From positions 811,001-875,000 of the forward strand of contig NC_091662.1 in assembly GCF_042453785.1 (NCBI RefSeq): DNA of 64,000 bases, given 5' to 3'. The notes under the pieces are model-generated. The model was not told the DNA's origin, made no database searches, and saw nothing but the letters and a program-made list of their open reading frames with translations. A program made the position numbers and the translations under genes. Of this stretch, positions 1,264 to 13,771 are shown one piece after another; the first letter of the stretch is position 1, and every line of letters starts with the position of its first letter. Origin of the DNA: Malus domestica. Taxonomy: Eukaryota; Streptophyta; Magnoliopsida; Rosales; Rosaceae.

Positions 1264-2700
1264 ATGTCTTCCAAGCTAACACTTCCGTTTATCTTTTCCG
1301 CTCTCATCTTCCTCATCCACCTCAACTTCTCATCCGGCCAAACCGTCGTTAAAGCCGCTTACTGGTTTCCCGACAGTGGCTTCCCGGCCGCCAGCATAAA
1401 CTCCAGCCTTTTCACTCATCTCTTTTGTGCATTTGCCGATCTCAATGCCACCACCTACCAAGTCACAGTTTCGTCCTCCAACTCCGCCCCGTTCTCAAGC
1501 TTTACACAAACAGTCCAGCAAAAAAACCCTTCTGTAAAAACCCTGTTGTCCATCGGTGGCGGAAATTCCAACCCCGCCACCTTTGCCGCAATGGCTAGCC
1601 AGGCTACCCGGCGTAAAGCGTTCATTAACTCCTCCATCACGTTAGCGCGGAGTTACAACTTCCATGGCCTTGACCTTGACTGGGAATACCCATCCTCCAC
1701 CACGGAGATGACTAACTTCGGTACCCTTCTCACGGAGTGGCGAACTGCCGTGGCAAATGAGTCAAAAACCACGGGCAAGACCGCTTTACTTTTAGCCGCT
1801 GCTGTTTTCCGCTCTGCGGATTACTACAGCATAAACTACCCCTTCCAGTCCATATCAAACAGTTTGGACTGGATCAACGTAATGGCTTACGACTTCTACG
1901 GCCCCGGTTGGTTCCCAAACAACACTGCGCCACCCGCGGCGTTGTCTGCGAGTTCCGTTAACGGGGATGCCGGAATCACGTCGTGGATTAAGGCAGGATT
2001 GGCTCCCAAAAAGATAGTGCTAGGTCTTCCATTTTACGGATATGCGTGGCGTTTGTTGGACGCGAATAACCACGGCATTTTTGCCCCTGCTAATGGATCC
2101 GGTATAGGAACGTATGGTGACCAAGGTTACAGCCAAATAAAGGATTTCATAAGCCAAAACGCAGCTCAGACGGTGTACAACGCCACCGTTGTTACGAACT
2201 ATTGCTACTCCGGGAAGACGTGGATTGGTTACGACGATACGCAGAGTATCTCCGCCAAGGTTTCGTATGCCAAGACGACGAAAGGACTTCTTGGCTACTT
2301 TGCATGGCATGTCGGCGCTGACAGCAGTAATTGGGCTCTTTCTCAAGCAGGTATTTTGTTGAATCATGTTGCAAAAATTTTACATTATATTGGATATTGA
2401 ACGATTTCATTGCTAGTTGCATCCATCGAAACTTTTATCTAAAATGATACACTAATTGGATCATACAAGTGATTAAATTTGAGAAAATTTTGACGTTTAT
2501 TAGTAGTGGACCGTTAAGACTGTTTCTCTGATAATAACCCATATTTTTTGGATTAATTTCTATTGCATATATGAAATATTAGTTCTTCCAAATTAAAGAA
2601 TACAATATGTAGTTGTTTTGTTTTGTTTAGGATTCAATTACTGTTGATTATTCAACTCTATAATTTCATTTTTCACGCAGCTGCAAGTACATGGGGATGA
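1264..2700 (+). CDS. Class V chitinase (GH18), secreted, two exons
   Basis: Predicted endochitinase of the plant class V GH18 family, cleaving beta-1,4-GlcNAc polymers. Exons are 1264-2350 and 2681-2700, giving 368 aa. An N-terminal signal peptide ends near residue 25. The GH18 motif GLDLDWEYP carries the full DxDxE set, with catalytic acid Glu141 and Asp137/Asp139. Conserved MAYDFYGPGW and GYFAWHVGAD follow. The exon 1 frame stays open into the intron and stops at 2400, but GTATTT at 2351 and CACGCAG before 2681 give a phase-1 intron whose 20-nt last exon ends ...SQAASTWG, the usual class V ending. The first base of the last intron sits at the same codon as in the GH18 receptor kinases downstream. 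Secretion to the apoplast or vacuole is inferred. Confidence 0.9.
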
Positions 2701-10779: not shown

Positions 10780-13771
10780 TCATCGGGGTTTCAGTTCGGA
10801 AATCTCAGCATCATTGACTGAACAGCTTCCTTTCTGTGATGTAGATACGCTTTCCATATTTCTATCAGTTTTTCCAGAGAAAGCTGTCGTTGTAGGAATT
10901 GGAATGGCCTCAGTGTCAGTTTTGAGTAGGGAATAGACTTCCAACATCGTAGGCCTATCGTCGGGATTTTCCTGGACACATAGTAGAGCTACTTGCAAGC
11001 ACCTCAACAGTTTAAAAGAAGTAGAAGAATCGTCAAGTGAATGATCAATAAATTCCAGCCCTTTATCCTCTTTCCATGATGCATATGCCTGAAATAATTT
11101 TAATGCTGAAGTTCAGATCAAAATTGTAGTTGTTACAGTAGTCAAAGAAAGCTATGGAACTTACATATTCCAAGAGGTGCAAGCTTTTGTTCGGACCATA
11201 GTAACATGTATTCTTCCTTCCGCTAATCAGTTGCAAAAGTAGAACGCCAAAGCTATAGACATCGTACTTCATAGAGTATATGCCCTTTTTTACATATTCA
11301 GGAGGAACATAGCCGCTGCATTGCATTCAATAAGTACTAAAGGATATGATCATGCGTGAATAAGAATAACCGATGAGAGGCAGTTTACTTACTATGTTCC
11401 AACAATCCGGCTTGTGTTTCCTTCAAGTTCATCTTTTCCGAAAAGTTTGGCCATTCCAAAATCTGAAATTTTGGCATTCATCTCATTGTCAAGCAAAATG
11501 TTGCTAGCTTTTAGATCTCGGTGAATGATAGTAACATTTGAGTATTCTTGAAGATATAGGAGTCCCTGAGTAACCCCTTCAATGATGTGCACACGCTTTC
11601 TCCAGTCTAGGAGTTGCTTTCTGGTAGGATCTGCGAGATAACGAACTCAGGACCAATGAGGTATGCAAAGGAGCAAGAGAAAAAAAATTACGAACACAGA
11701 TTTCACAACTTTAAATTAGATTGCAAAGTTTGTGTAATTCTAGCATGCATTCTCAACTTTAGCAGAAAGCATGAAAAATTGCTGACCGAAAAGGTAGAAG
11801 TCCAAGCTTCTGTTTGGCATGTACTCGTAGATCAGCATTTTTTCTTCCTTCTCACTGCAGAATCCAAGAACCCGAACTAAATTTACATGTTGTAGGTTCG
11901 CGGTAAGTGTAACCTCATTTCCAAATTCCTCAAGTCCTTGAGTTGACGTTTTCGAAAGTCTTTTCACAGCTATTTCCTGTCCTGTCCGCAGTTTACCCTA
12001 GAATTTTTTAAGAAAATATAGCTAACATGGTTGATGAAAAGAAACAGAGATCTATAACCGATCCAAAGATGAATTCAAAAGGTTGCAACACTCACTGTTC
12101 ACCAGAGTTTGTACAACATGTAGATAATATACATAATCTTACCTTGTATACGGGACCAAACCCGCCCTCTCCAAGCTTATTTTCGCTTGAAAATTTATTT
12201 GTTGCCGCTTTGATCTCAGAAAAGCTGAACACTTGCGGATTTGAAGGATCTGATGCTCTTGAATTGCCTAGAATTATTCTCCCTGAAACCAGAAGGGAAA
12301 AGAAAAAGTGAAAACACAAACTCTGTTGACGTTATGGTACAAAAGATAAATTCTCGTCATCTACTTGTTAAACAAACCCTCAATATTGAGAAAAACAACC
12401 TCTTGTCATCAAGAGTTTTCTCTGCAAGTAACACACCACAAAGGCTGTAAGAATTACGATCGAAGTAACTGGAAGCAAAATTATAAGCAATAATCGCCGC
12501 TTGTTTTCATGACCATTTCCTTCCTCTTGAGCTGTGAATCGTTAAAACAGTTGGATCTATATTAGTCATTAGATAACAATTTGATGCCTGAAAAAAGCCT
12601 TCTGTCAAAAACATAGCATCGGTAAGTAACCTGTATCGGGGGATAAGTATTGCGTACCTGCCCGAGAAAGCGCCCAATTGTCATCGTCATTGGTGACTAG
12701 AAACACATTGGAACCGAGTAGTTTCTTCTCCTTGGCATATGCAATCTTAGCTCTGATAGCTTCCACATCATCGAAACCAACCCAACTCGATCCTATGATG
12801 CAGTAATTTACAACATAAGTAGCATTATACACTATGGGAGCTTGGTAGCTTCGTGTGTACCCCTTGATGTACTTATAGCTCATGGATCCATCTTTTGTCA
12901 CAGCAGTGCCAGATGCAGGTGCCCCAATTCCATTATTTTCTTCGGGTTTTGCAAGTGTCCATGCATATCCGTGGTAAGGCAAACCCAAAACCAGTTTGCC
13001 GGCCGGAAATGAGTAGTTTAACCATTGCCTTATACCGTAGTCAGTGTTAACATGGCTCAAAGGATTGTATAAAGCCGCATGAGCACCGGTAACATTCTCC
13101 TTCGAAGGCAGATGATAGTCATACGCCACAACATGTGCCCAGTCCAAATTCCTCTTCATAGAATCAATAGGGTAACTCAATGATTCAAAAGCAGGCAAGT
13201 AACGAACGGCCATTGTCAGCAATAGCTGTGACTGACTTGAATTTCTCGACTCATAAGTCACAGCAGCTCGCCACTCGTCCAACAGCTTACCCATGTTATT
13301 CATATCGGAGGCTTCGCTAGGCCACAGCCAGAATAAGTCTATACCCCGAAATCCATAACGCCTTGCCATTTTGATGGAGGACTCAATGAAAGACCTTCTA
13401 TTAGAAGGGTTTTCGAGCATTGAGGACAAGACAGAAAAGTTAGCGTTCTCGCCCAAAATCGCTCGCCCTGTTTCAGCCTGTCCATTCCAGATGGATAGGA
13501 CTGTGATGGTGGACGGGTTCTTTCGCTTGACAATATCGGTGAAGCTCGAAAAGTATTGGACATGAGCAGAAGGGATGGAGAGCTGGTAGGTGGAGGCATT
13601 CACATCAGCAAAACCACAGATAAGATGAGTGAACAAGGCAGAATTTATCTCCGGTATAGGAGACTCGCTGCCGGCGTACCAGTAACCGGCTCTTATCCAA
13701 CTTTGTGCAGAGGAACAAGAAACAAAGAAGATGAGGGGGATGATCAGATAGGGGAGATTTCTGAATTCCAT
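10780..13771 (-). CDS. Chitinase-related receptor-like kinase (GH18-RLK C)
   Basis: Inverted partner of GH18-RLK A with identical gene structure. Exons on the minus strand are 13771-12658, 12531-12400, 12282-12143, 11997-11787, 11630-11393, 11315-11165 and 11088-10780, giving 764 aa. Internal exon lengths (132, 140, 211, 238, 151, 309 nt) equal those of gene A exactly. It has a signal peptide, a GH18 ectodomain, a TM helix and a kinase with [17 protein letters not shown] and DFGMAK intact. The GH18 active site reads GIDLFWLWP: Leu replaces the catalytic Glu and Phe replaces Asp, a different change from gene A's Asn. An in-frame ATG at 13807 would add 12 residues. Its 3' end faces gene A across the relics, so the pair is tail-to-tail. 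Ligand unknown; chitin-derived or other glycans are the obvious guess. Confidence 0.88.

Follow-up and report, generated by a model that had tools for sequence, protein, structure and literature searches.

Gene Structures and the Shared Exon Junction

A stretch of 64,000 nucleotides from the apple, Malus domestica (NCBI RefSeq assembly GCF_042453785.1, contig NC_091662.1, positions 811,001 to 875,000 of the forward strand), which is called the window below and to which all coordinates refer, carries a gene for a secreted class V (GH18) chitinase, two genes for receptor-like kinases (RLKs) with a GH18-like outer part, here named RLK1 and RLK2, and a broken third copy of the latter. GH18 receptor kinases of this CHRK1 type are already known from other plants, and what the cluster adds is a seam shared by enzyme and receptor, together with a direction for the change from one to the other. 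To our knowledge, the exact seam is known for few receptor-kinase origins.

The chitinase gene, on the + strand, was modeled with two exons encoding 368 residues. Exon 1 (1264..2350; sequence model, Pfam and motif scan) encodes the signal peptide and the catalytic domain with DLDWE at residues 137-141. It is followed by a phase-1 intron of 330 nt (2351..2680), whose donor after 2350 reads GTATTTTG, and then by a terminal exon of 20 nt (2681..2700) preceded by ...TTTTTCACGCAG. This small exon supplies the tail A-ASTWG-stop, and the spliced C-terminus is LSQA-AASTWG. Pfam finds GH18 alone in the product, and a 19-residue hydropathy window above 1.6 lies at its N-terminus. The protein has the DxDxE motif and is closest to plant class V enzymes, as expected for a plant class V GH18 chitinase: the best PDB match among those listed is AtChiC of Arabidopsis (3aqu, 475.9 bits), and identity is 65.5% to this ChiC and 56.8% to tobacco ChiV (3alf). 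The strict PS01095 pattern does not match, position 134 being His, as it likewise is in the four PDB proteins from plants that serve as class V references below.

Each of the two RLK genes has seven exons. RLK1 spans 4779-7724 on the + strand and encodes 765 residues, and RLK2 spans 13771-10780 on the - strand and encodes 764. Their first exons (4779..5895 in RLK1, 12658..13771 in RLK2; gene model and Pfam) encode a putative signal peptide, judged by eye, with no 19-residue hydropathy window above 1.6 at either N-terminus, and a GH18-like ectodomain that matches class V chitinases across its whole length. The second exon (6021..6152, phase 1 at both ends, and 12400..12531, respectively) encodes the transmembrane segment, where hydropathy peaks at 3.25 and 2.87 in the two RLKs. 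Exons 3-7, identified by the gene models, Pfam and motifs, encode the kinase (6230-6369, 6508-6718, 6873-7110, 7188-7338 and 7416-7724 in RLK1; 12282-12143, 11997-11787, 11630-11393, 11315-11165 and 11088-10780 in RLK2). Pfam reports GH18 and kinase families on both products, so that a class V-type GH18 ectodomain, a transmembrane segment and a kinase are joined in one gene in both cases. Apart from the first exon (1117 nt in RLK1 and 1114 in RLK2), the exon sizes are identical in the two genes (132, 140, 211, 238, 151 and 309 nt), and the introns of all three gene models have GT-AG ends.

The chitinase and the two receptors break at one common residue. In each of the three genes the first junction is in phase 1 and splits an Ala codon as G|CT: after 2350 in the chitinase, after 5895 in RLK1 (GGGCAG^GTACACAA, with exon 2 starting at 6021 and preceded by ...TGATTCACAG), and after 12658 in RLK2, whose exon 2 starts at 12531. 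Where the chitinase has its tail exon, the RLKs carry an exon for the juxtamembrane and transmembrane parts. An earlier note on this DNA had described this shared break with its phase-1 donor, the 20-nt terminal exon, and the continuation of the receptors into transmembrane and kinase exons. Coordinates and phase proved correct in all three rebuilt genes, each receptor has one transmembrane and five kinase exons, and the small exon is supported by the PDB tail match described below, with its peptide written A-ASTWG when the split codon is counted. That the sharing of the junction goes beyond chance is our judgement and carries no calculated probability; two of these genes are recent duplicates of each other.

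As for possible products of the receptor genes, if intron 1 were retained, the frame would stay open for 10 codons in RLK1 (5896-5927, split codon counted) and for longer in RLK2 (12657-12605). Such retention would yield a soluble ectodomain.

The Terminal Exon and the Direction of Change

Is an exon of 20 nt real, and is it old? The references are the four proteins recognised as plant ones among the PDB matches listed (60 of 98), namely 3aqu together with 3alf, 4uri and 4mnj, which we take to be tobacco ChiV, Robinia CRA and cycad chitinase A, respectively. When tails were compared as proteins, the intron seam being known here from the genes of this window alone, the spliced chitinase tail scored 44, 63, 62 and 25 against the four. 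The unspliced read-through end scored 16, 11, 16 and -14 against the same tails and was rejected. Because the spliced and not the unspliced tail fits the four proteins, the 20-nt exon probably exists and probably represents the ancestral state. The tail peptide is present in all five secreted proteins compared (the apple chitinase and the four PDB proteins) and absent from both RLKs, and the residue of the split codon is Ala in 5/5 of the secreted proteins. If the cycad label given above is right, the tail would be as old as seed plants.

Since the tail is conserved in secreted proteins and replaced in the RLKs, the best reading of these sequences is that the change went from chitinase to receptor, with the secreted form ancestral. 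The opposite course, raised by the earlier note as an alternative, is that the secreted chitinase is an RLK that shed its transmembrane and kinase exons. The junction would look alike either way, and loss of a kinase has been described for the DUF26 family (PMC6368629). The apple chitinase, however, retains catalytic residues that both RLKs have lost, possesses the tail of the four PDB proteins, and is 65.5% identical to Arabidopsis ChiC. With the conserved tail marking the secreted form as ancestral, this reverse course is disfavoured, and we find it scarcely credible.

Lost Catalytic Residues Outside and Intact Kinase Motifs Inside

The chitinase and the receptors differ clearly in their GH18 parts. 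Of the 98 alignment columns in which the five secreted proteins all agree, 24 are altered in both RLKs. The catalytic Glu of the chitinase, E141, is replaced by Leu (L150 in RLK1, L149 in RLK2), so that both ectodomains are without it, and an Asp of the catalytic motif, D139, has become N or F. Within the SIGGG motif, G99 has changed to N in the RLKs, and the conserved W348, presumably the tryptophan of the -1 subsite of GH18 enzymes, is F in both. AtChiC and NtChiV, which have the same DLDWE as the apple chitinase and a similar tail, are likewise set apart from the RLK ectodomains, with about 45% identity to them and a catalytic Glu that the RLKs lack. Hydrolysis of chitin is predicted for the chitinase only.

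The kinases present another picture: the glycine loop, the Lys, and the HRD and DFG motifs are intact in both RLKs, and the solved structures that match best are those of SymRK and BAK1. Between RLK1 and RLK2, the ratio of nonsynonymous to synonymous substitution rates (Ka/Ks) is 0.30 overall, 0.34 in GH18, 0.64 in the transmembrane and juxtamembrane part, and 0.19 in the kinase. As catalytic residues are lost outside and kinase motifs kept inside, with Ka/Ks of 0.34 against 0.19, the receptors probably combine a less constrained outer pseudoenzyme with an active kinase. One may suppose instead that the receptor does not signal and serves as a decoy or scaffold, or that the whole cluster is decaying, and the third copy, broken and partly inverted, would fit such a view. 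Against it stand the intact kinase motifs of both RLKs and the kinase Ka/Ks of 0.19, and we regard it as very improbable.

The fold of the outer domain makes a glycan ligand plausible. The earlier note saw in the cluster an enzyme that can make chitin fragments and receptors that may sense them. The simple idea that these receptors read chitin oligomers is weakened, because the ectodomains have lost the catalytic residues and the conserved Trp. If tobacco CHRK1 is a guide, the receptors might act in defence or development. The RLK1 ectodomain was also modelled, with three sequences as input; the mean pLDDT (predicted local distance difference test) was 40.1, and the model was not used.

A Possible Origin of the Receptor from a CRK-Type Cassette

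Where could the six exons behind the junction come from? As a rule, genes of the CRK (DUF26) family comprise seven exons, of which the ectodomain and the transmembrane segment take one each and the kinase five, and the family is reported to have originated when a secreted protein was fused to a transmembrane-kinase unit (PMC6368629). Compared by exon count, exons 2-7 of both RLKs, with one transmembrane and five kinase exons, equal this published layout, and the ectodomain is here GH18 and not DUF26 (PMC6368629). Because one ectodomain, one transmembrane and five kinase exons make up the CRK layout, a GH18-RLK gene looks like a CRK-type gene in which a chitinase exon has taken the place of the ectodomain exon. 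Among the literature matches listed (12 of 210), no title promised usable data on CRK intron phases.

From these features we infer an ancient single swap, a CRK-type source and a sensing role. In an ancestor, a class V chitinase gene, at a phase-1 intron close to its 3' end, would have been joined to a CRK/S-domain-type kinase gene, at the phase-1 intron preceding the exon for the transmembrane segment, and the short tail exon would thereby have been exchanged for a six-exon transmembrane-kinase cassette. The chitinase exon might then have shed its catalytic residues and become a sensing domain, the kinase staying under stronger constraint, while the neighbouring secreted enzyme would have retained the old tail. 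In this way the apple cluster would be a class V chitinase standing beside CHRK1-type RLKs, two intact and one broken, that derive from one ancient exchange of tail exon for cassette predating the cluster itself, and we hold this to be likely.

It may be tempting to go further and to see in the junction at 2350/5895/12658 the fossil breakpoint of one phase-1 intron recombination that founded the whole GH18-RLK family by way of the CRK-type six-exon cassette, with this cluster and the strawberry pair FvChi-8/FvChi-4 still holding the ancestral and derived types together. We offer this wider proposal tentatively, as we think it somewhat unlikely. In any event, an exon boundary common to a secreted enzyme and a receptor, with a tail that gives the direction, is a clue to the origin of the GH18-RLK family and makes it testable by a two-part tree, and an enzyme and a receptor relative that is itself a dead enzyme, lying next to each other, lend themselves to the question of which ligand the receptor binds.

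Local Origin or Old Origin?

The earlier note suggested that the receptor arose when a neighbouring kinase replaced the terminal exon of a tandem chitinase. In its local form, this means that a tandem copy of this very chitinase lost its last exon to a kinase nearby, in this lineage. Adjacency and the shared junction speak for such an event, and an approximately unbiased (AU) test on the tree described below does not reject a clade of the chitinase and the RLKs. The sequences themselves, though, show no special affinity between the receptors and their neighbour. GH18 identity of the RLKs is 44.8-45.4% to the adjacent chitinase and practically equal to Arabidopsis ChiC (44.9-45.2%) and tobacco ChiV (44.7%). 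In 321 gap-free columns, the residues that the RLKs share exclusively with one of the five secreted proteins are fewest for the neighbour, at 3, against 7 each for tobacco and Robinia, 8 for Arabidopsis and 10 for cycad. With the four non-cycad proteins, the neighbour came top in exclusive sharing in 13 of 2000 column bootstraps. Synonymous divergence (Ks) between the chitinase and RLK1 is about 2.5 and saturated; that between RLK1 and RLK2 is 0.162.

Nor does the window offer a likely donor of the kinase. The only other kinase found in it by tblastn with the RLKs is a leucine-rich repeat (LRR) RLK at about 45.5-48.7 kb, which was rejected as a donor at 26-32% identity. A remnant of the tail exon was sought in intron 1 of the RLKs and in the transmembrane exon and downstream region of RLK1, and all scores fell within those of shuffled sequences. 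Relatives were also sought by pattern among viral contigs, with 3 and 0 matching stretches in two scans, and among genome contigs, with 70 and 9, and none of these stretches could be confirmed. As the same architecture is known outside Rosaceae as well, assembly of the receptor locally from this chitinase is not supported by the sequences, and we consider it improbable. Thus, the replacement of an exon in the direction from chitinase to receptor remains the best reading, carried by the same junction, the whole-length class V match and the conserved tail, and the local event with a neighbouring kinase goes without support, in view of the absent affinity, the saturated Ks, introns that cannot be aligned, an LRR-RLK as the only other kinase recovered by tblastn, and GH18 kinases described from further rosids and from asterids.

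Such kinases have been described in several plants. Tobacco CHRK1 has a class V-like ectodomain without the catalytic Glu (PMC10573068), and a review counts 91 plant proteins that combine GH18 with a kinase (PMC5485988). By description, CHRK1 resembles RLK1 and RLK2 in its class V-type ectodomain, its kinase and the loss of the catalytic Glu (PMC10573068); the apple locus differs in having two intact copies, inverted relative to each other, next to a secreted chitinase that is likewise intact. In soybean, one class V member has a transmembrane segment and a kinase (PMC6272470, PMC11855358). In coffee, class V proteins with a PKR-like kinase domain are reported and, in a separate statement, six to eight exons are given for one class V clade (PMC12567117).

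Further counterparts are described in strawberry, where class V FvChi-3, FvChi-5 and FvChi-8 have a kinase domain and six introns (PMC10097121). At 773-777 aa they are comparable, by description, with the 765 and 764 residues found here (PMC10097121). FvChi-3 and FvChi-5 are given one location and are therefore probably one gene (PMC10097121). FvChi-8 (773 aa; chromosome 1, 2,046,227-2,050,302) is separated by about 8 kb from FvChi-4 (372 aa; 2,058,150-2,059,443), which is presumably class V judging from its length and is close in size to the apple chitinase of 368 residues (PMC10097121). As FvChi-8 and FvChi-4 are so near to each other, a receptor with a chitinase-sized neighbour may be an arrangement shared in Rosaceae. 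In Malus sieversii, MsChi1, MsChi4 and MsChi7 stand in tandem, and of the three MsChi7 alone has retained the GH18 signature; infection with Valsa raises the expression of MsChi1 and MsChi7 (PMC9676469). The same source gives apple class V genes of seven or eight exons (PMC9676469). A tandem cluster is common, by description, to that species and this window; the M. sieversii list differs in having no full-length receptor of the RLK1/RLK2 type (PMC9676469).

Several points weigh against the single ancient swap favoured here and have to be set beside it. Single origin and CRK source rest on published layouts and not on sequence comparison. The introns of the chitinase and the RLKs are unalignable, with no similarity left between them. 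A tree of seven GH18 proteins (the chitinase, RLK1, RLK2 and the four PDB proteins) resolves only the RLK pair. Constraining the chitinase and the RLKs into one clade costs 2.28 log-likelihood units (AU p 0.351), so the local clade is neither rejected nor supported. Constraining the four secreted angiosperm proteins together, a clade that an ancient swap might predict, costs 1.67 (p 0.35). As this tree is undecided, local origin was argued above from exclusive sharing and from the published papers.

To these points the literature adds others. The outer domain of CHRK1 is supposed to be enzymatic in one source (PMC5485988), unlike the account in another (PMC10573068). Arabidopsis is stated to have no GH18 kinase (PMC10573068), and texts on petunia and olive chitinases make no use of the word kinase. 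The longest MsChi protein has 517 aa, which is why the list holds no full-length receptor, and the word kinase is absent from the main text of that paper (PMC9676469). Among the matches listed in the open-licence literature, there was no description of a shared junction or of exon shuffling for GH18-RLKs.

These considerations bear also on whether the swap occurred once. Class V chitinases might have been fused to CRK/S-domain kinases several times, independently in different plant families, through the same available phase-1 intron. Such an exchange would be easy to repeat, given that the domain ends at a phase-1 intron and that the transmembrane exon is likewise in phase 1, and the best tree places the RLKs beside tobacco ChiV, although weakly (71/81). 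Other joins are on record: some class III proteins of coffee bear a kinase domain (PMC12567117), and soybean has GH18 proteins with PAN/apple and kinase domains (PMC11855358). As the soybean PAN/apple case shows GH18 to have joined kinases more than once, independent origins must be reckoned with. Against them stand the six introns found both in the strawberry genes (PMC10097121) and in this cluster, and the loss of the catalytic Glu common to the RLKs and CHRK1 (PMC10573068). On balance we regard repeated fusion as rather unlikely, and a single swap older than the cluster remains the reading that we prefer.

Inverted Duplication and Other Genes in the Window

The two intact receptors are the arms of an inverted duplication, in which 4703..7999 (+), the RLK1 arm, is 89.8% identical to 13847-10486, the RLK2 arm. 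Directly downstream of RLK2 and abutting its 3' flank stands the third GH18-RLK copy, found by tblastn and duplication analysis and left unmentioned in the earlier note. On the - strand (8917..10486) it has matches to exons 1-3 in several frames, with the first codons missing and the frame broken, and still keeps the acceptor CAG|CTCAGGAGG. Fragments of its kinase exons 5-6 lie at 8438..8752 on the + strand, inverted against the rest of the copy; exons 4 and 7 had no match in the region 8438-10486.

The remaining genes of the window were placed mostly by Pfam. The LRR receptor-like kinase mentioned above has LRR and kinase matches at 45490-48740 on the - strand, and it looks like the TDR/PXY group. 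Pieces of a P-type ATPase (E1-E2_ATPase and a weak HAD hydrolase match) at 23916-26670 on the + strand presumably represent a plasma-membrane proton pump. Two open reading frames of about 200 aa, much alike by eye and about 2.4 kb apart, lie at 30140-33207 on the - strand, the one at 32584-33207 being without a Pfam match. The region 34489-42828 contains a WD40 reading frame (35582-36061), an FAD-dependent oxidoreductase in two pieces (36796-39222) and an MCM match (42433-42828). Lastly, a sugar transporter gene occupies 60891-62153 on the - strand, with its Sugar_tr match within 61392-62153.

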